DNA of 64,000 bases, from positions 17,379-81,378 of the forward strand of contig JAFXVS010000046.1 in NCBI GenBank assembly GCA_017534815.1, in the 5' to 3' direction. A model generated the notes under the pieces. It had not been told where the DNA came from and ran no database searches. It saw only the letters and a list, made by a program, of their open reading frames with translations. Position 1 is the first letter of the stretch. Every line of letters starts with the position of its first letter. This DNA comes from Bacteroidaceae bacterium. GTDB taxonomy: Bacteria; Bacteroidota; Bacteroidia; Bacteroidales; Bacteroidaceae. The translations under genes were made by a program, and so were the position numbers. Below are positions 14,790-63,471 of the stretch, piece after piece.

Positions 14790-14796
14790 AGTAAAA

Positions 14797-14843
14797 TAAA
14801 TGATGTGAAAGAATATTTGGCGAAAAATTTTTCACATCATTTA
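14797..14843 (-). terminator. rho-independent terminator of uvrA
   Basis: A 13-base inverted repeat (14798-14810 against 14830-14842, core GATGTGAAA / TTTCACATC) follows the uvrA stop codon, and the minus strand continues into a T-rich tract. It would end uvrA transcription just before the M64 promoter. Confidence 0.7.
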
Positions 14844-14890
14844 TTATTTAGGCCATTATGGACGATTTATTACCTTTCTTTTGGGGTATA

Positions 14891-18889: not shown

Positions 18890-19000
18890 TATAAATAATG
18901 TGGAAATTAAAAACACGTGGAGCGATTAAACCTTTTGGTGTGTGCTCTGTCAAAAAAGCAGTTATAACTATTTTTTTACTATTTTATTTATTAATTCAAC

Positions 19001-20254
19001 ATGAAAAAAATTATTCTATCATTGATGACGCTTGTTAGCTTGACAGCGTCTGCACAGTTTGGTGGTTTTGGCGGTCGTGGCCAGGGAAACCCTTGGGTAG
19101 ACTCAGAAGCAGCTGTATCAGAGGACTTCAAACCAGCATTAAGCAATCAGGACAACAAACAGTATCCTATGGTGAATTCAGCGCGCCAAGTTCGTGCTCA
19201 GATTTCTGCTCCTAATGCTACAAAGGTGGGTCTTGACATTGCAGGTAAGATTTATACCATGACCAAGGACGAGAATGGTGTGTGGACAGGTACTTCTGCT
19301 CCTCAGGATCCAGGTTTCCACTACTATCAGTTGAATGTTGACGGAGCAAGTGTTCCAGATCCAGGAAGCCTCTACTACTATGGTGCAAGCCGTTGGGGTA
19401 GCGGTATTGAAGTTCCATCTGAAGACCAGGATTTCTGGCAGGTGAAGAATGTTCCTCAAGGCTCAATGGGTGAGGTTTACTACTATTCTTCTTACACAGA
19501 GAAGATGCGTCGTTGCTTCGTTTATCTGCCTAACGAGTACTTCACTAATCCTACCAAGAAGTTCCCAGTTCTGTATCTGCAGCACGGTATGGGTGAGAAC
19601 GAGTACAGCTGGCCATATCAGGGTCATGTTGCCTCTATCTTGGATAACCTCATCGCAGCTAAGAAGGCTGTTCCATTCATTGTCGTGATGGATAATGGTC
19701 TGAATGCAAATAAACCATTTCCAGCAGGTGAGATGCCTCAAGGTCTTCAGGGCGGTCAGCGTCCTCAGGGTGGTCAGCGTCCTCAGGGTGGTCAGCGTCC
19801 ACAAGGTGGCTTTGGCGGCTTTGGTGGTTTTGGTGGCGGCTTTGCTGAAGATTTCAAGAATGTGCTCTTCAATGATATCATGCCAATGGTAGAGAAGAAC
19901 TACCGCGTGGTTGCTGATCCTGCACATCGTGCATATGCAGGTCTCTCAATGGGTGGTATGCAGGCTCGTGAGGTCACTCTTGCTAATCCTGGCAAATTCG
20001 CTTATGTAGGTTCATTCAGTAGCGGTGCTTGGAGTGTTGACCAGGTGAAGAACTCAGAAGGTTTTGCTAAGAACACCAAACTTCTCTTCATGAGTGGTGG
20101 TGGCAAGGAGAACATGGGTTGTGTAGAAGCTGCTAAGAACATCAAGGAGCAGCTCGGCATGAATGCTGTTGGTTATGAATCACCAGGCACAGCACACGAG
20201 TTCCACACTTGGCGTCGTAGCCTCTATGAATTCGCTCAACTGCTCTTCAAATAA
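19001..20254 (+). CDS. secreted CE1-like esterase with N-terminal E-set domain
   Basis: A 417-residue exported alpha/beta hydrolase of the esterase D / feruloyl esterase (CE1) type, which removes feruloyl or acetyl groups from plant polysaccharides. A signal peptide (1-19) and Gly/Phe-rich linker precede an E-set beta domain (about 55-145), then the esterase domain (155-417). The nucleophile is Ser316 in GLSMGG, and the His is probably His402 in EFHTWRR. Residues about 246-280 are low complexity: GGQRPQ repeated, then GGFGGF, encoded by a 15-18 base tandem repeat, inserted between the oxyanion region and the nucleophile. A terminator at 20276-20313 follows. The start is the only ATG giving a signal peptide. 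Confidence 0.85.
   Translation: MKKIILSLMTLVSLTASAQFGGFGGRGQGNPWVDSEAAVSEDFKPALSNQDNKQYPMVNSARQVRAQISAPNATKVGLDIAGKIYTMTKDENGVWTGTSAPQDPGFHYYQLNVDGASVPDPGSLYYYGASRWGSGIEVPSEDQDFWQVKNVPQGSMGEVYYYSSYTEKMRRCFVYLPNEYFTNPTKKFPVLYLQHGMGENEYSWPYQGHVASILDNLIAAKKAVPFIVVMDNGLNANKPFPAGEMPQGLQGGQRPQGGQRPQGGQRPQGGFGGFGGFGGGFAEDFKNVLFNDIMPMVEKNYRVVADPAHRAYAGLSMGGMQAREVTLANPGKFAYVGSFSSGAWSVDQVKNSEGFAKNTKLLFMSGGGKENMGCVEAAKNIKEQLGMNAVGYESPGTAHEFHTWRRSLYEFAQLLFK
19748..19845 (+). repeat. in-frame tandem repeat encoding Gly-Gly-Gln-Arg-Pro-Gln units
   Basis: Near-identical copies of GGTCAGCGTCCTCAGGGT run through the esterase gene, followed by GGC/TTT repeats. The reading frame is kept, so copy-number change would lengthen or shorten a surface linker without breaking the enzyme. 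Confidence 0.8.
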
Positions 20255-20275
20255 AACATCAATACACATAAGCAT

Positions 20276-20313
20276 AAGAAGGGGAGGTCGCAATTGCAAC
20301 CTTCCCTTCTTTT
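20276..20313 (+). terminator. terminator of the esterase gene
   Basis: Long near-perfect hairpin (AAGAAGGGGAGG ... CCTTCCCTTCTT) with a T-rich tail, 22 bases after the esterase stop codon. Confidence 0.85.
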
Positions 20314-20700
20314 ATAGCTCGTATATAGACCTCCGATTTTTCTTCACTCGAGTCATTTTATCATTTGACTCGAGCCAATCGATGATTTGACTCGAGTGAA
20401 GGTTTTTGAGGCATGGGTCGCATCCGCTCAAAATATCCAAAAAATCCATGTCAAAATCTTCAAAAAAGGGACAGGGAGTTTCTCGTAAACAAACCACCAG
20501 TTTGTCGGTAAGAAACTATACGTTTGTCGTAATGTTTCCACCCTTTTGTTGTTTGGGGTAAAAACTGACCTAAAATCACGCTAGTTAACTCGATTCATCA
20601 AACGAGTTAACTCGATCGATGAAATGAGTTAATTCACGAGGACTTGTGTTTGTTGAGCATGGCCTGCCATACAATGTCATGATGAGGGCTTTATGTGAGG
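20314..20700. repeat. compound intergenic array with 22-bp period
   Basis: This gene-free stretch holds three sub-arrays, each with an exact 22-bp period but a different core. ACTCGAG begins at 20346, 20368 and 20390. GTTTsTCG begins at 20478, 20500 and 20522, with a degenerate copy at 20544. GTTAACTCG begins at 20584 and 20606, with GTTAATTC at 20628. The first and second sub-arrays are 88 bp apart, exactly four periods. The first and third cores are palindromes (ACTCGAGT; CGAGTTAACTCG). No coding potential is seen. Confidence 0.85.
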
Positions 20701-20708
20701 AAGCAAAA

Positions 20709-20948
20709 CTATTTCCATATCTCATCCAATGTTACGACGCGTCCACGACCATTCTTGATGTCTTCATCTCCTTGGCGTAGAATCTCAACCATAGCGGGTG
20801 AAGACATGATATATTCTGTCTCGTCCATAGCCTGCTTCTTAGCCGTCAGTTTCTTGAGGTACTTTACGGCTTTCTGCATAAGAGTCTCGTCCTCAGCGAT
20901 AAGGCTCAATTCGCGGAATAATTCCGCATTTAATTGTAATGCTGTCAT
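20709..20948 (-). CDS. orphan antitoxin-like small protein
   Basis: A 79-residue, mostly helical protein (MTALQLNAELFRELSLIAED ... KYLKKLTAKK ... VTLDEIWK). It resembles the small antitoxin-like proteins that Bacteroidales encode next to RelE/HigB-type toxins. The N-terminal LNAELFRELSLIAEDE pattern is the part I recognise; the family assignment is tentative. No toxin gene lies within the flanking 286 or 454 bases. The promoter is good (TTTG, 19 bases, TAACTTTG), with a predicted 19-base leader, so the gene is probably expressed. Confidence 0.65.
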   Translation of the reverse strand: MTALQLNAELFRELSLIAEDETLMQKAVKYLKKLTAKKQAMDETEYIMSSPAMVEILRQGDEDIKNGRGRVVTLDEIWK

Positions 20949-20973
20949 AGTGCCATTTTATTGATTTCGGTGG

Positions 20974-21004
20974 CAAAGTTACGATTAAGCGAGTGAAATA
21001 CAAA
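20974..21004 (-). promoter_or_regulatory. promoter of the antitoxin-like gene
   Basis: Minus strand -33 TTTG (21001-21004), 19-base spacer, -7 TAACTTTG (20974-20981). Confidence 0.7.
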
Positions 21005-21205
21005 ATAAAATCGCTTTTATTTTTATTTCCGAGCATAAGTAACTTATCTAAAGTTACACATAATCATTGAAATAACAAAAAATACAATATAAAATATCAT
21101 GGAACAGGCAAGTTAGCGAAAAGAATGAAAGGGTGACAAAATGATAATTGGCTCGTCTTTCTGAAGATTTTGAGCGTCAGTGACCACTGAATGAAGAAAA
21201 AGTTG

Positions 21206-21213
21206 TACCTTTG
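21206..21213 (+). promoter_or_regulatory. -7 element of the M15 peptidase gene
   Basis: TACCTTTG, 21 bases before the ATG at 21235; predicted leader about 15 bases. No obvious -33 TTTG. Confidence 0.6.
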
Positions 21214-21234
21214 CAAAAAAGATGAGATACGAAC

Positions 21235-22047
21235 ATGAATAAAAGAGTCCTTTTCACTTCCATCATCACCTTGTTGATGCTGAATGGATTGACTGTTTCA
21301 GCACAGAATCAGGAAGGGGCACATATATGGAGCCCTACCTCGAACCCGACTCAAACTGATGGATCGCTTCCTGCTGCGGCACAGAGAGTGATGGATGCCT
21401 ATCCTGCGTTTAAGATGACGTATAGGGATAACGCCCTGCATTTCGAAGATGGCACAAAAATCATCTATGATGACGGACGGGAGAAAAGCTTTGAGGAAAA
21501 ATTGGATGACTGTGACATCGAGGATATGTTCTCTATGGATTATGACAGAACCTCAACGGTTCCTGGCTATCTGGAAGATTGCGGAAGGGGACGTAATGAG
21601 GAACTCTTCAAGAAGATGTATGGCAGAACGGAGGGTGAGGTGCGCAAGAATCTTGTCAGCGTGAATTGGTTCGGTCAGAAGATACCCTTCACAAAGGTGA
21701 ATGGGGCAGCGGAGCAATTGGGCAAGGTGGCGGCAGAACTTGCCAAACTGCCACAATACAGAAAGTACCTCACGAATGCTTCTACTTTCTATTGGCGAAA
21801 GGTGAGGGGCGCGAACCGTCAGAGTGCGCATAGTTATGGGATTGCCATTGACATCAACACGACTTACTCTAATTATTGGCTCTGGTCTAATCCCAACAGC
21901 TCTGAGACGGACACCTTGAAGTATGTGAACAGGATTCCGCTGGAGGTTGTGGAGGTATTCGAGAAATACGGTTTTATCTGGGGCGGACGATGGTATCATT
22001 ATGACACCATGCATTTTGAATATCGACCAGAATTCTTCATGGACTGA
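21235..22047 (+). CDS. M15-family D-Ala-D-Ala carboxypeptidase-like protein
   Basis: A 270-residue exported protein with a signal peptide (1-23). The C-terminal half carries the metal site of the Peptidase_M15_4 (VanY-like) family: SAHSYGIAIDIN gives the His and Asp ligands, and WYHYDTMHFEYRPE gives the catalytic Glu/Asp and last His. Such enzymes trim D-alanine or L-Ala-D-Glu cross-links in peptidoglycan in the periplasm. The N-terminal 120 residues are a less conserved extension. It is convergent with the B3/B4-domain gene, whose stop codon is 28 bases away. Confidence 0.85.
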   Translation: MNKRVLFTSIITLLMLNGLTVSAQNQEGAHIWSPTSNPTQTDGSLPAAAQRVMDAYPAFKMTYRDNALHFEDGTKIIYDDGREKSFEEKLDDCDIEDMFSMDYDRTSTVPGYLEDCGRGRNEELFKKMYGRTEGEVRKNLVSVNWFGQKIPFTKVNGAAEQLGKVAAELAKLPQYRKYLTNASTFYWRKVRGANRQSAHSYGIAIDINTTYSNYWLWSNPNSSETDTLKYVNRIPLEVVEVFEKYGFIWGGRWYHYDTMHFEYRPEFFMD

Positions 22048-47606: not shown

Positions 47607-50600
47607 TTATTTCAGTGTGACGGTCGTGCCGCGCCCGTCGTAGTTGACGAGGATGCCGTCGGGCATGCCGAAAGTGAAGGGCTTGGGGGCATCGGCGGTG
47701 ATGAGGACGACGTTGAACTTGCGATTCTTGAGCATGCCGGGGAAGGTGCCGCGGCGGGGAGCGATGGTGAGGGTGCGGGCGGCGTCGTCGTAGCGGATGT
47801 CGATGGTGCTGTAGCGGCCGCGCTCGTAGTTGTAGTTGGTGCCCTCGTCCTCGTAGAGCTCGAAGTGGCCGTCGCGCCCGCCGTAGATGTAGAGGTGGAT
47901 GATGTCGGGGGTCTTCTCGTCGCTCCACTCCATGTCGGGGCCGACGGGGAGGATGGCGCCCTCGGGCACGAAGACGGGGATGCGGTCGTAGGGGGCATCG
48001 ACGATGAGACGGCGGGGGGAGGGTTGAGAGTTGAGAGTTGAGGATTGAGAGTTGATGACCTTCTGGCCGGTGTAGAGGTCGTACCAGCCGCATTGTCGGG
48101 GGAAATAGACGCTGCGGCTGCGGGCTTTGTACTGGCTGACGGGGCAGGCCATGAGGGAGGGACCGAACATCCACTGGTCCTTGATGTCGAGGACGTCGGG
48201 GTCGCCGTTGAAGTCCATGACGAGGGCGCGCATCATGGTGTAGTCGTGGAGGTGTACCCAGCCTGCCATGGAGTAGAGGTAGGGCATGAGGAGGTAGCGG
48301 AGGCGGTGGTGGCGGACGATGCTCTGGTAGGCGGGATGGGTGTCGGGGGCGATGTTCCATGCCTCGCGCAGGGGCCACTGACCGTGGGCTCGGTAGATGG
48401 GGATGAAGCATCCGAACTGGTCCCAGCGGGTCTGGAGCTCGCGCCACTCCTTGAGGTCTTCGTTCTCCTGTCCGGTCTGGTCGAAGTGCTGCTGGGCGCG
48501 CACATAGCGGTTCTCCACGCAGAAGCCGCCGTCGTCCATGCCCCAGAAGGGGAGTCCGGAGAGGCTGTAGTTCATGCCGGCGGTCATCTGGGCGCGCATG
48601 TCTTCCCATCGGGTGCCGATGTCGCCGCTCCATGTGGCGGTGGAGTAGCGCTGCTCGCCGGCGAATCCGCTGCGTGTGAGGAGGAAGACGCGCTGGTTGG
48701 GGTTGACGGAGCGTTGGCCGTTGTAGATGGCGTCGGCGTTGACGATGCTGTAGGCGTTGAAGTATTCGGTGGAGGTGCCGAGGGCGGTGGCGCCGCAGAG
48801 GGCCTTGCGGTACCACATCGGGGTGCAGTCGCGCACGTTGGGCTCGGAGGCGTCCATCCACCAGGCGTCGATCATGGAGTTGGGAGTTGAGAGTTGAGAG
48901 TTGATAGTTGAGGGCTTGCCTGAGAGGCCGGTGTAGAGGTGCTCGTCCATCTGCTTCCAGAAGAGTTTGCGGGCGCCCTCGGAATAGGCGTCGTAGAAGG
49001 AGCCGACGTAGCCGGGACCCACCCAGTCGCGGATGTTGTCCCTGACGGCCTGCTGGTACATCCAGCCCTTGCTGTCGAGTTCCTTGTAGTGGTCGGTGTT
49101 GCAGTAGAACTTGGGCCAGACGCTGATCATGAAGCGTCCGTTCATGGCATGGACGTCGTCGAGCATCCGCTGGGGGTCGGGGAACCGCGCCGCCTCAAAC
49201 TCGTGGCTGCCCCACTGGTCTTCCTTCCAATAGTTCCAGTCCTGCACGATGTTGTCGATGGGGATGTGCCGCTTCCTGAACTCCGCCAGGGTCTCGGTCA
49301 GCTCGTCCTGCGTCTTGTAGCGCTCGCGGCTCTGCCAGAAGCCCAGCACCCACTTGGGATAGACGGGCGCCTTGCCGGTCAGGGTGCGGTAGCCGCTGAT
49401 GACCTCGTCGAGATTGGCTCCGGCGATGAAGTAGTAGTCCATGTCCTTGGCCATCTCGCTCCAGATGCTCAGCTTCCCCTGCTCGTCGGCAGAGCGCGGA
49501 GAGGCCACGCGCAGTCCGCAGTAACTGACGCTGCCGTCGGGCTGCCACTCGATGCGGAGCTGGTTCTTCTCGCCCTGGTGCAGGGGCACGGTGAACTTGT
49601 AGGCATTGGGATTCCACGCCGTGCGCCATCGCTCCGGCACGACCTCCTTGCCGCCCATATATACCTTGATATATCCAGCGTAATAAAGGATGAACTGGTA
49701 GTCGCTCGTCTCGGGCGCCTCGATGAAGCCTTCATAGACGACCTTGGCGCCCTCCAGCCTGAAGCCCTTGGGCAGGTTCTGGATGCCGCCCTTGTCGGTC
49801 TTGCCGATTTCGGAGTCGTCGGGCAGGGCATATTCGAAATAGAGGGAATCCTCGTCACGCACGAACTGTCGGCCGCTCCGGTCGGTGTAAGTGCCCGTCA
49901 GATGCCCCTCCTTGCCCTGCTTGTCGTAGAGAAGGAACGCGCGGTTCAGCTGGAGGTAGTCGTCTGGATTGCCGAATCGGCAGTAGGAATAGCTGTCCCA
50001 CAAGATGCCGTAGTTCCTGTTCGACACGACGAACGGCACCGCCACCTTCGTGTTGTACTGAAACAGATCCTCGTTCTTCCCCTTCATGTTCAGCTCCTCC
50101 GATTGGTGCTGCCCGAGTCCGTAGAACGCCTCGTCAGCCGGACTCTCGAACGTCAGCCGCCACGTCAGTCCACGTCTTTGCTCCTCAGTCGGATGTCCGC
50201 TGCCGAGTTCCCTGTCCGGCACACGGAACGGCTTGAACGTCTTTCCCGTTTCCTCCTCTTGCAGCAGCGTCTTCCCCGATGCGTCGAGGAACGCCACTCG
50301 TCCATTCCGCTTGTCCACCACCGCCGTCACCTTCGCGGCCTTCACCCTGACGCTCCAGGCATCCTCCTCCACCGTGAACATCGGCTTCGCCTTCTGTTCC
50401 ACAATCATCAGACTCCGCTGCTTCTCCGGCAACGCCTCTTCCGACGTCGCCCTCACCCGAATGATTCCGTCGGCCATCACCTGCAGCCGCACCACACGCG
50501 CCTCGCCCCCATCAGGACGAACCGTCACAAATGCCCCTTGCCGTTCCACCTGCGCGGCTTGACCAGCCAGTGTGAACCACAAGGGGACAAAAAGTAGAAG

Positions 50601-52640: not shown

Positions 52641-52674
52641 ATTGTTTGTTTTTTTGATTGATCTTATTGATTTT

Positions 52675-52756
52675 CTAGGTCTCCTAGGTCTCCTAGGATT
52701 TCTAGGTCTTCTAGGATTTCTAGGACTTCTAGGATTTCTAGGACTTATAGGTCTTA
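52675..52756. repeat. nine-copy 9-bp CTAGG tandem repeat
   Basis: Nine tandem 9-base units of form CTAGG(A/T)(T/C)TT run from 52675 to about 52756. They fill the gap before nadE and run through the stop codon of the GH2 gene (52754-52756). Units alternate between CTAGGATTT and CTAGGACTT, pointing to duplication of an 18-base pair of units. Confidence 0.85.
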
Positions 52757-55336
52757 TTGGACTGTGATATTAGCGGTGGCAGGTTTGAGGCCTTGGGCAG
52801 TCACATGCACCTTGGCGCTGCCGGATTTGCCATTGCTCTGGATGCCGATGACGAGTTGGCCGTGGAAGGCTTTCATCGTGGGTTCTGTGAAGACTTCGAG
52901 GCTGGTCGCGTCGCCATTGCAGATGCCCTTGAACGTGGCGGCACCGGTCACTTCCACTTCAATCTGGTTGCTGGCATAGGGCACGAGATTGCCGTCCTTG
53001 TCGAGGATGCTGACAGTGATGAAGGTCATGTCCTCGCCGTCGGCCTTGAGGGGCTTGATTTCTGCGCCCAGGTCGCCTGTCAGTTTGATTTGCGATGCAG
53101 CTCCTGCAGTTCTGATGCGCTCTGTGCCGACTTCCCGTCCTTGTTGATCATAGACCACAACCTTGATTTCGCCTGGCTCGTACTTGACGTTGTTCCATCG
53201 CAGACGGTAGCGGTCGATGGCAGGGTCATTGACGTCAGAAATCCGTCCTTCCTTGCCGGCGCCCTTGTGCACGTCGGTCCTCTTCGTTATCTTGCCCTGA
53301 GACTTGCCGTTCACGAAGAGTTCGGCAGTAGGGTAGTTCGTGTAGCAATACACGGGCGTCACTTCTCCCTCGCGACCAGGGAATGTCCAGTGGGGTACCA
53401 GATGAATGGTCTTTTCATCTTGGTTCCAATGGGAGCGGTAGAGATAGTAACGGTCTTTGGGTAGTCCCGCAAGGTCGAAGATGCCGAAATAGGAGGAACG
53501 GCTGGGCCAGTATTCATCGTAGGGAGTGGGTTCGCCAAGATAGTCGAAGCCTGTCCAGACGAACTCTCCAATCACCCAATCCTTGTCCTCTTGCAGGAGC
53601 CAGTCCTCTTCGGGTACATTTGACCACCAGCAGGCTTCCATGTCATAGCTGGAGCATTGCCCGTCGTCGTACGCCTTGCCATCAAGACGCTCTACTGGAA
53701 ATTTATACACTCCACGGGAGGAAACGGTGGATGCCGTCTCACTGCCGAGCACGAATCCGTGACGCAGTTTCTCGTAGGCGGCTTCGTATCGGTGGGTGCG
53801 GTAGTTGATGCCTGGAATGTCGAGCACCTGTGCAAAACCTGAGGAGATGGCATTGTCGATGCGGTCCATACCCGACGTGACAGGACGGGTAGGGTCGAGG
53901 AAGTGAACAAAGTTCTGCATCTCCCGCGACATACGGTTACCCTCTTTGGCTCCCTGTTCAGAAATCTCATTGCCGATGGACCACATCACGATGGAGGGGT
54001 GAAGACGATGAGCCATGACAAGGTTATGGAGGTCGCGCAGCCACCAATTCTTATAGAAACGACTGTAGCCGTTCTTGCATTTAGGCCATTGCCACATGTC
54101 GAAACTCTCTGCCATCACCATCATGCCGAGGGAGTCATAGACTTCCATCTGCATCTGTGAGGGTGTGTTGTGAGAGGTACGGATGGCGTCACATCCCATG
54201 CTCTTCAGCAGTTCCACCTGACGGATGAGGGCTGCCTTGTTGACAGCAGTGCCAATCATGCCGAGGTCATGATGCAGACAGACGCCTTTGATTTTCCGGG
54301 CTTCTCCATTCAGCATGAAACAGCCATTCTCTCCCGACACCTCCACTGTCCTGATGCCGTACTTCACAGTCTTTGTGTCAAGCACATCTCCTTTGCCGCC
54401 ATCTGCGATGATACTGACGGTGAGGTCGTAGAGTAGGGGGTGTTCGGGTGACCAGCATTCCACATCTTCCAGAGATATTTCAGCCGCCGCATGAGCGTCT
54501 GCAGGCGTATCGAAGTACTCAAGATTCATCTCCTTTATATTTCCGTTTGATGTGAACCAGCGTGCAGTAGTAGGGACCACTGGCGTGACGTCGATGGTTT
54601 TGTCTTGTGTGGAGAACCGGACGATGCAGTTTCTTCCATCTGCAATGTCAGCCGACAACGCAATGGTGGCTTCCTGCGTTTTCCCATTCCATTGTTTCGT
54701 CTCTACATTGATGCCCCAATCGAGGATGTGGGACGTGCCTGTCTGAATCAGGGTGACAGGGCGGTACAGACCTGCTCCGGGATACCAGCGGCTACTTTCC
54801 TCCACATTCTTCAGATGCACGGCGAGGGTGTTGGCCGTATCGTCACCGTTCACTACGCCAGTGATGTCGATATTGAAAGGTGTGTAGCCGTACTTCCATT
54901 CGCCGACCTTCATACCGTTGACATAGACTTCCGGCTCTGCCATTGCTCCGTCGAAGTTGAGGACAGCGCGCTGCGTGTTCTTGTCAACTTTGAAAGTGGT
55001 GCGGTACCAACCTTCGCCAATCCAAGGTAAAGAGCCCGAACGCCCGGTCTTCTCAGTAGCGGTTTTCTCACCGTTCTGCTCGATGGCAACAGTCTGCTTG
55101 TCGATTTCCTTGTCGAAGGGACCGCTGATTGCCCAGTCGTGAGGAACTTGCACCATCTGCCACTTACTGTCATTGAAGCCCACTTCCGACGGAGCCATCG
55201 CATCGAGTCCTTCGCCGCGTGAAAACCTCCACCCATCGCGCAGAACCGTCTCCTTGCGCTGGGCTGTGGCGGTGAGTGTCGTGCAGAGCATTCCCAGCAA
55301 CAACAATCCCTTGAATATGTTTAGATAGTTAGTCAT
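52754..55336 (-). CDS. GH2 beta-galactosidase-like enzyme
   Basis: An 860-residue exported GH2 enzyme. A signal peptide (1-26, ending TATAQ) precedes the sugar-binding jelly roll (about 30-205) and an Ig-like domain (about 210-330). The TIM barrel has the acid/base Glu457 in SIGNEISEQG and nucleophile Glu533 in VLGSETAST, and C-terminal beta domains of the DUF4982 type follow. Beta-galactosidase is the usual activity for this layout, though beta-glucuronidase and related activities occur. Four bases separate it from the mltG stop codon. The stop codon is part of the CTAGG repeat. Confidence 0.9.
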   Translation of the reverse strand: MTNYLNIFKGLLLLGMLCTTLTATAQRKETVLRDGWRFSRGEGLDAMAPSEVGFNDSKWQMVQVPHDWAISGPFDKEIDKQTVAIEQNGEKTATEKTGRSGSLPWIGEGWYRTTFKVDKNTQRAVLNFDGAMAEPEVYVNGMKVGEWKYGYTPFNIDITGVVNGDDTANTLAVHLKNVEESSRWYPGAGLYRPVTLIQTGTSHILDWGINVETKQWNGKTQEATIALSADIADGRNCIVRFSTQDKTIDVTPVVPTTARWFTSNGNIKEMNLEYFDTPADAHAAAEISLEDVECWSPEHPLLYDLTVSIIADGGKGDVLDTKTVKYGIRTVEVSGENGCFMLNGEARKIKGVCLHHDLGMIGTAVNKAALIRQVELLKSMGCDAIRTSHNTPSQMQMEVYDSLGMMVMAESFDMWQWPKCKNGYSRFYKNWWLRDLHNLVMAHRLHPSIVMWSIGNEISEQGAKEGNRMSREMQNFVHFLDPTRPVTSGMDRIDNAISSGFAQVLDIPGINYRTHRYEAAYEKLRHGFVLGSETASTVSSRGVYKFPVERLDGKAYDDGQCSSYDMEACWWSNVPEEDWLLQEDKDWVIGEFVWTGFDYLGEPTPYDEYWPSRSSYFGIFDLAGLPKDRYYLYRSHWNQDEKTIHLVPHWTFPGREGEVTPVYCYTNYPTAELFVNGKSQGKITKRTDVHKGAGKEGRISDVNDPAIDRYRLRWNNVKYEPGEIKVVVYDQQGREVGTERIRTAGAASQIKLTGDLGAEIKPLKADGEDMTFITVSILDKDGNLVPYASNQIEVEVTGAATFKGICNGDATSLEVFTEPTMKAFHGQLVIGIQSNGKSGSAKVHVTAQGLKPATANITVQ

Positions 55337-57803: not shown

Positions 57804-57838
57804 AGTTTAGAGTTTAGGGTTTAGTGTTTAGAGCTAAG
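57804..57838 (+). repeat. heptanucleotide array between der and a lipoprotein gene
   Basis: Five 7-base units (AGTTTAG, AGTTTAG, GGTTTAG, TGTTTAG, AGCTAAG), immediately after the der stop codon and six bases before the next ATG. Confidence 0.8.
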
Positions 57839-57843
57839 TATTG

Positions 57844-58257
57844 ATGATTAATCAGATGATTGTAAGGTCGTTATATCGTTGTATTCCAGCTTTGTGTTTG
57901 GTGCTGTTTCTGGTGTCTTGCGAGGAAAAGGAGCGTAAGCCAGAGAATACGTTGAAGGAGGCGTTGGAGGCGTTGGAAAGGAACGACCACGATGGCTACC
58001 TGAAGCACGTGGATATGGGTGATGATATGGATGCCGCCAAGACTGCATACATGAAGGATGCGCTCCGTCAGCATGTGGGGTGGCGACGTTCAGAACGTGC
58101 TGCCGTGCTCTCCATCGATATGATTGATGCCCAGATGAATGGCGACAGCATCTGCACTGTATATTACCAATATTCCTTTGCTGACGGCACCAAGGAAGTG
58201 GGTGCGCAGAAGATGGTGCGGCACGGTCAGGAATGGAAACTCAGATTAAGAAATTGA
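57844..58257 (+). CDS. DUF4878-like small lipoprotein
   Basis: A lipoprotein of about 137 residues. A signal peptide with lipobox LFLVSC (Cys near residue 25) is followed by ENTLKEALEALERNDHDGYL, a mostly helical segment, then a strand region ending HGQEWKLRLRN. This layout, including the terminal basic strand, resembles the DUF4878 lipoprotein at 18437, so they may be paralogues. Function is unknown. The start is the ATG at 57844; a TTG three bases earlier and an ATG at 57856 are alternatives. Confidence 0.65.
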   Translation: MINQMIVRSLYRCIPALCLVLFLVSCEEKERKPENTLKEALEALERNDHDGYLKHVDMGDDMDAAKTAYMKDALRQHVGWRRSERAAVLSIDMIDAQMNGDSICTVYYQYSFADGTKEVGAQKMVRHGQEWKLRLRN

Positions 58258-58358
58258 AACTAAAAACTAAAAATTAAAAACTAAAAGTGAAAATAACTCG
58301 CCATACGGACAGGAAGGGTAACTTATACTTTTAGTTTTTAGTTTTTAACTTTTAACTT
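58258..58358. repeat. inverted pair of heptanucleotide arrays forming a long hairpin
   Basis: A left array of AACTAAA-type units (58258-58289) and a right array of TTTTAGT-type units (58327-58358) are reverse complements over about 30 bases, with a 37-base loop. The right arm ends four bases before the NSS transporter start codon. Confidence 0.8.
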
Positions 58359-63422: not shown

Positions 63423-63427
63423 GTGCC

Positions 63428-63471
63428 GTAGGGGTACCCTAGGGTTACCGTAGGGTTACCCTTGGGTTGCC
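63428..63471 (+). repeat. four-copy 11-bp tandem repeat at a pseudogene edge
   Basis: GTAGGGGTACC, CTAGGGTTACC, GTAGGGTTACC, CTTGGGTTGCC. The last copy overlaps the first homologous bases of the NSS transporter remnant. Confidence 0.8.

Follow-up and report, generated by a model that had tools for sequence, protein, structure and literature searches.

A fixed 22-bp step with exchangeable palindromic cores in dispersed intergenic arrays of Bacteroidaceae suggests docking sites for paired DNA-binding proteins

Why would a single intergenic region carry three different short motifs, each repeated at a step of exactly 22 bases? This question is raised by a locus in a stretch of 64,000 nt (the window) from a Bacteroidaceae bacterium (assembly GCA_017534815.1, contig JAFXVS010000046.1, positions 17,379-81,378, forward strand), whose genome is a 2.31-Mb draft that is 75% complete. 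A first-pass annotation had described three blocks of different cores with a common period and had proposed that the spacing itself is selected. The starts of these motifs were exact: ACTCGAG at 20346, 20368 and 20390, GTTT[CG]TCG at 20478, 20500 and 20522, and GTTAACTCG at 20584 and 20606, with GTTAA recurring at 20628. The degenerate copy of the second block at 20544 reads CTTTTGTTG when counted from 20543. Between 20331 and 20650, we counted 16 recurrences of 7-mers at lag 22, whereas in 2000 dinucleotide-preserving shuffles no lag between 9 and 59 ever had more than 9. As none of the 2000 shuffles reached 16, the 22-base periodicity is not a product of chance. Tandem Repeats Finder also gave a period of 22 for blocks 1 and 3. 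Blocks 1 and 2 are indeed four periods (4 x 22) apart in the window copy, but block 3 does not keep the phase of block 2, as it is 40 bases from 20544 to 20584. In random contigs of the same genome, the 22 lag was detected in 1 of 73 intergenic segments. Chance periodicity of random DNA, which the annotation had named as a possible objection, is therefore not supported, and neither is the idea of arrays occurring genome-wide.

The locus lies between a putative esterase gene (PF00756; 19001..20254, + strand) and a small convergent open frame of 79 aa (20709..20948, - strand) with a weak DUF2683 match below the curated cut-off, the gene calls being those of a crude open-frame script. It is a mosaic string of dispersed intergenic modules in the order A-B-C-D. 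Module A (20342..20401, no strand assigned) contains three ACTCGAGT-type palindromes (20344-20355, 20366-20377 and 20388-20399) at 22-bp steps, and as a whole forms a 60-bp near-palindrome with 80% complementarity. Module B (20413..20470, + strand) runs from GGTCGCATNCGCTCAAAATC to TCAAAATCTTCAAAAAA with an internal 23-bp repeat, and is also found by itself at other places of the genome. Module C (20474..20560, + strand) comprises the GTTTsTCG units and their degenerate copy, with a period of 22 bp; positions 20474-20525 matched other copies and the end at 20560 was set by inspection. Module D (20581..20638, no strand assigned) again contains three palindromes at 22-bp steps, of the GAGTTAACTC type (20581-20592, 20603-20614 and 20625-20636); the first base of core 1 deviates and core 3 has one C to T change. 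This third block is a 48-bp near-palindrome, 85% complementary. The palindromic nature of the cores was confirmed for blocks 1 and 3, where the dyads have 5 or 6 of 6 pairs. Block 2 was discarded as a palindrome array, no core of module C reaching 5 of 6 pairs.

Other features were recorded in the window. An inverted repeat 3' of the esterase gene (20276..20311, + strand), terminator-like by inspection, is separate from the arrays; a terminator scan of 20240-20720 returned no terminator-like site, and this hairpin is likewise absent from its output. No known RNA of Rfam was matched in 19000-22000 with E up to 1. A copy of module F (63423..63471, - strand) is made of GGGTACCC/GGTTACC repeats with an 11/22-bp period, and a 9/18-bp tandem array of TTCTAGGAC occupies 52673-52763. 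Self-comparison of the window also revealed near-palindromes of 94 bp (58261-58354) and 51 bp (14795-14845).

We then examined the step with searches in which the gap between two copies of a core was free (N2-32), so that the step was not presupposed. For GAGTTAACTC, the core of module D, the step was 22 in 31 of 31 forward pairs, found in 6 of 201 genomes of the family and 5 of 30 genera; as a control, the reversed pattern had one match in the 201 genomes. For ACTCGAGT, the core of module A, 25 of 27 pairs had a step of 22 and two a step of 21 (6 of 22 chosen genomes). Two further cores had first been spotted by lag-22 scans, and only their other places are therefore independent. The step of GAACATATGTTC was 22 in 9 of 9 pairs, all in one genome (G036) out of the 45 of the genus, two of them at the place of discovery of the core and seven independent; that of TTCATTAATGAA was 22 in 6 of 6 pairs (2 of 20 genomes), three at places of discovery and three new. 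The GAACATATGTTC family occupies five places in G036, including L144:1712-1785 and C1, C18, C22 and C25, with GC-rich spacers. Carriers include the cultured Prevotella communis E15-14 and Prevotella sp. tc2-28. Among 15 carriers of D, 207 forward pairs were found, and the 75 listed all have a step of 22, although ten of these 75 (G242) duplicate pairs of G220; the former has the ten D places of the latter and the two were treated as one genome.

At least 118 stretches with GAGTTAACTC-N12-GAGTTAACTC are present in the species-genome collection, and we examined 80 loci (L163-L242, 607,806 bp). The titles among these 80 listed loci are only Prevotella, Prevotellaceae, Bacteroidaceae, Bacteroidales or Mediterranea. 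As the loci were chosen by an exact D pair, core conservation and D counts are inflated in this set. Among pairs of identical 8-bp palindromes other than D, 40 of 48 in these loci are at lags 22 (25 pairs), 44 (12 pairs) or 66 (3 pairs). When five pairs lying within D arrays and four within a predicted gene (L178) are set aside, the proportion is 31 of 39, and this reduced set contains 12 arrays with eight cores at 22 or 44 (ACTCGAGT, GCTCGAGC, AGTCGACT, CATTAATG, AGTGCACT, AAGGCCTT, AATCGATT and TTCATGAA). When palindromes of 10 bp were considered, a lag of 22 or 44 was seen for 235 of 248 pairs in the 80 listed D loci and for 20 of 20 pairs in other array genomes, and genomes lacking exact D pairs contained no such pair in 611 kb. 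One genome of the latter kind (G032) gave two lag-22 pairs when 8-bp palindromes were used. The step is thus kept while the core changes, both in the free-gap searches with four cores and in the arrays of other cores, and the proposal that the spacing is selected holds.

Modules A and D belong to a superfamily of arrays in Bacteroidaceae, with two to five copies of one 8-12 bp palindrome, 22 bp from dyad to dyad. Among 115 arrays (including a few overlapping sub-arrays and the one in the predicted gene of L178), three cores were counted in 83, four in 21, two in 9 and five in 2. The cores of an array are of the same family. At a step of 22, different 10-bp palindromes were paired in only 1 of 34 cases in D loci, 0 of 30 in the other genomes with arrays and 1 of 8 in those without D, so that heterotypic arrays were rejected as a general rule. 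D cores rarely occur outside arrays: in 708 kb sampled from the own genome, with a bias towards hits, 12 were within arrays and none stood alone, and in D loci 240 were within arrays and 7 alone, three of the 7 belonging to an irregular array of L241. This longer GAGTTAACTC array (L241:3137-3290) has GC-rich spacers and steps of 24, 24, 23, 22 and 22. The step also deviates in the two A pairs at 21, and L167 and L193 have joints of 23 bp. The 22 lag was detected in 16 of 156 intergenic segments in the hit-biased sample and in 7 of 55 in G036, the stretches L083-L102 (mostly) and those of G036 coming from contigs with known matches. A lag of 21 in the random own-genome contigs was rejected as a second period, since it accompanies lags 14, 28, 35 and 42, as heptamer repeats do. 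Heptamer tandem repeats of the GAGAGTT and AGTTTAG types lie in the window at 48019-48055, 48877-48912, 57804-57833 and 58257-58293, and similar repeats explain the peaks at lags 14, 21 and 28 in the random contigs.

From 161 distinct core-spacer-core units (whose core part is biased by the D-pair search), we obtained the spacer consensus RAWNSATSNWTY, which is nearly symmetric, with an AT centre lying 11 bp away from that of the core. Spacers are 10-14 bp long and vary between units. By eye, the same spacer type accompanies several other cores, and a different type is seen with GAACATATGTTC, with GCTCGAGC and in the Mediterranea copies; L186 and L218 have quite different spacers, yet the same core and step. 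On the outer side, flanks of about 20 bp have a layout mirrored between left and right: A/T-rich at 3-8 bp and again at 15-18 bp, with a G/C-rich part at 10-14 bp in between and background composition beyond. This layout is common to D (n = 128; equalled in strength by 0 of 500 shifted nulls) and to other cores (n = 29; by 3 of 500), which suggests that array and flanks form a frame of roughly 96 bp.

Changes within the D core were compared in 73 cores of 24 D-like arrays, including a pair that is probably due to chance (L300) and an array of GTCGAC type (L313). Among 57 changes, 28 are symmetric transitions from GAGTTAACTC to GAATTAATTC (C8 to T, G3 to A). All three cores are changed in two copies, fully in L046 and with a further change at the first core in L038, and both spacers of L046 are those of a nearly unchanged copy (L034). 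Changed D cores were seen in L033, L038, L046, L052 and L089, in addition to the window core at 20625-20636. From the pattern of the substitutions, cytosine methylation or concerted change is a possible origin of the symmetric transitions.

We then investigated the dispersal of the modules. A search of the own genome with 20330-20660 gave 39 matches, one being the query and the others matching parts of it; palindromes can match on both strands. The map of the sampled pieces contains 69 modules (B 14, G 12, A 7, C 7, K 6, D 6, E 5, F 4, N 3, I 2, H 2 and T 1). The order B-C-D-E recurs at two other places (L088, L089) and H-C-D-E at one (L086). Near-identical stretches of about 59-85 bp surround the array at places whose flanks are otherwise unrelated, also across genomes, so the array unit itself appears to be copied; longer composite blocks are shared within genomes. 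The array of the window is therefore a member of a dispersed intergenic family, as had been considered possible. This family is patchy. Wide occurrence among relatives was not found, as 39 of 45 genomes of the genus have no match to the window DNA (E 0.001); among the six that match, five have 15-28 matches and one a single match. G022 and G032 have 0 and 1 matches, though the esterase protein is 100% and 99% identical and the DNA about 97%. These two genomes were rejected as an orthologous-site insertion pair because the sequence past the esterase gene does not align.

The annotation had held that homologous loci lacking the 22-base spacing would speak against it. They do lack it, only in the sense that the whole array is absent after the esterase gene in 12 of 12 orthologous regions (BLAST, with about 600 bases each inspected by eye). 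Nor could the M15 peptidase gene be located in 8 relatives. In a syntenic region with paaK, an ACT gene, a tRNA and purB, an array is present in one species and none in the other, and no clean pair of occupied and empty sites was seen. Separately, a 23-bp dispersed sequence, TTGGCTACGCCGAGCT(A/G)AAGGTT, occurs in 31 of 45 genomes of the genus with at most 2 mismatches; some copies form inverted pairs separated by about 70-220 bp, in a REP/BIME-like manner. In the own genome it is found at G000:C45:63328-63350 and G000:C8:31140-31162, and, judged by other copies, it interrupts module C, and also module D at its left core, as a 21-bp insertion.

What could maintain such a geometry? A near-exact step, unrelated cores with one geometry and a shared flank frame argue for protein dimers on double-stranded DNA, on one face of the helix. 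With about even confidence, we propose that dimeric DNA-binding proteins dock on modules A and D, which would be helically phased arrays that have spread by copying. Each palindrome would be bound by a dimer, and the 22-bp step would set the dimers on one face of the DNA, where they could sit side by side and bend or wrap it, possibly assisted by the A/T tracts. Separate core families would be read by separate proteins of similar build, and the elements would multiply via copying into new intergenic places. Several results count against this docking proposal. Neither a binding protein or bound complex nor a neighbouring gene common to the arrays was found. Two helical turns of 10.5 bp would ideally require 21 bp rather than 22, and some steps measure 21, 23 or 24. 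The A/T pattern of the flanks best fits a period of 12.5 bp for D and 12.0 bp for other cores, not 11. Whole arrays fold well as RNA, and free exchange of cores would predict mixed arrays, which are rare. A more far-reaching version, which we consider doubtful, is that the arrays are chromosomal docking platforms with an invariant geometry (same-core dyads every 22 bp in a frame of about 96 bp) and a swapped recognition word, each word having its own dimeric protein; a single genome would then hold several addressing systems in parallel, which would have passed between genera.

The main rival is that the arrays act as RNA or single-stranded DNA, in the form of long palindromes that are either bidirectional terminators or hairpins that are cut, with left-hand A tracts and right-hand T tracts as terminator tails. 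Folding z values of -8.3, -4.0, -6.1, -6.3, -2.9 and -6.4 for six elements (the first two being the window arrays) are in its favour, as are an A run on the left in 60 and a T run on the right in 53 of 112 arrays, vs. 21 and 21 for the opposite runs. Moreover, spacers within an array match each other's reverse complements (4.53 of 10 vs. 3.91 permuted, 0 of 2000; 58 arrays). However, this likeness is stronger in direct orientation (5.26 vs. 3.90 of 10), and outer flanks do not pair copy by copy (9.49 vs. 9.59 permuted; 68 arrays). Nor are the arrays clearly sorted to gene ends: 21 convergent, 17 divergent and 47 co-directed of 85, against 55, 72 and 183 of 310 gaps, i.e. a mild convergent excess, with 4 further arrays inside predicted frames and 22 at locus edges. 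This small placement bias makes the terminator reading less probable, and the scan around the window arrays gave no terminator-like site. The spacing is much stricter than any loop requires; a hairpin needs no exact spacing, so the exact step favours docking on double-stranded DNA, and we judge the RNA or hairpin explanation unlikely. The direct likeness of spacers within an array, together with the longer tandem forms of L241 and L186, would also be expected from functionless minisatellite slippage of a 22-bp unit. This origin is very improbable, as core and step recur in several genera while spacers differ, and unrelated cores have a common step and flank layout.

A selfish origin was also considered, in which small mobile elements of REP or MITE type would owe their 22-bp geometry to the binding sites of a transposase. 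The near-identical units at unrelated places, the patchy distribution, the absence from the 12 orthologous sites and the module mosaics all fit such elements. In addition, Y1 transposase (PF01797) was found above the cut-off in 7 of 21 genomes, corresponding to 7 of 17 carrier handles vs. 0 of 4 non-carriers. However, Y1 is absent from array-rich carriers (G036, 98% complete, with 8 D pairs; G235, 52 pairs; G239, 50 pairs), and no match was found in the own genome (75% complete); RAYT mobilisation was rejected for want of a consistent link. In 81 arrays, the symmetrised flank consensus contains no GTAG or CGTC tag, and no target duplication stands out at fixed offsets of 0-44 and lengths of 2-9 (varying offsets would escape), the best 12 excesses being all of length 2 and scattered. 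As for the terminal inverted repeats of a MITE, the flanks have the mirrored layout described above, but no copy-specific inverted ends were found in 68 arrays. There is no clean pair of occupied and empty sites, and no gene family is common to the array loci, the best cluster being found in 4 of 80; on the same ground, a cognate gene adjoining the arrays was rejected. D and A patterns had no match in viral contigs, nor one D element in phages. Neither one D element nor the window element matched any of 72,556 plasmid records, a collection possibly poor in plasmids of these hosts. We therefore rejected a phage or plasmid origin as well as plasmid iterons. A CRISPR array, which would have unique spacers of about 30 bp and cas genes close by, was rejected too, with spacers of only 10-14 bp that share a consensus and loci without a common gene family. 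Taken as the explanation of the geometry, a selfish element is rather improbable in our view.

Among known systems, the right operators of phages are palindromes for dimeric repressors, about two turns apart and often three in number, on which binding is cooperative; they adjoin the repressor gene and few promoters, whereas the arrays are dispersed and have no constant neighbour. By analogy, the arrays may work somewhat like phased operators while being dispersed like REP, BrickBuilt or PINSR repeats. In the available text of PMC3733652, REPs (GTAG and CGTC families, RAYT) are stem-loops with a GTAG/CGTC tag and a variable distance to their partner. The arrays resemble REP/BIME as presented there in being short, palindromic, extragenic, clustered and patchy, with many copies, but they differ in having mostly three same-core dyads, a fixed 22-bp step, no tag and no consistent RAYT link. 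BrickBuilt, a MITE of Porphyromonas gingivalis with 19 copies in one genome, a 23-nt tandem unit, a leader and a tail (PMC4596501, available text), is likewise an intergenic element of Bacteroidales with a tandem unit of similar length. By its description, it is set apart by a unit without spacers and by inverted-repeat ends resembling IS ends, and the word stem 'palindrom' does not appear in the main text of that paper. Also set apart by description is PINSR, a 188-bp dispersed intergenic repeat of Prevotella intermedia/nigrescens (PMC4755523, available text): it is similarly unlikely to be coding, devoid of terminal inverted repeats and patchy between species, but it is one family of another clade, described without 22-bp arrays. 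In the available text of the open-licence literature, including PMC4755523, PMC5771137, PMC4596501, PMC3733652 and PMC4524435, no description of such arrays was found.

In dispersed palindromic repeats, which are common, it is usually the sequence that is conserved, and the spacing is loose. In these arrays, by contrast, nothing is as constant as the spacing, and the sequence can be exchanged from one family to another. They yield a simple prediction, helical phasing with dimer binding, and could help to identify the protein by which such elements are read, moved or tolerated in Prevotella-type bacteria. If the arrays do address different proteins, their recognition words would be parallel addressing systems shared across genera. 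Our results suggest that the intergenic three-palindrome arrays of some rumen and gut Prevotella-type bacteria are docking platforms for paired DNA-binding proteins.
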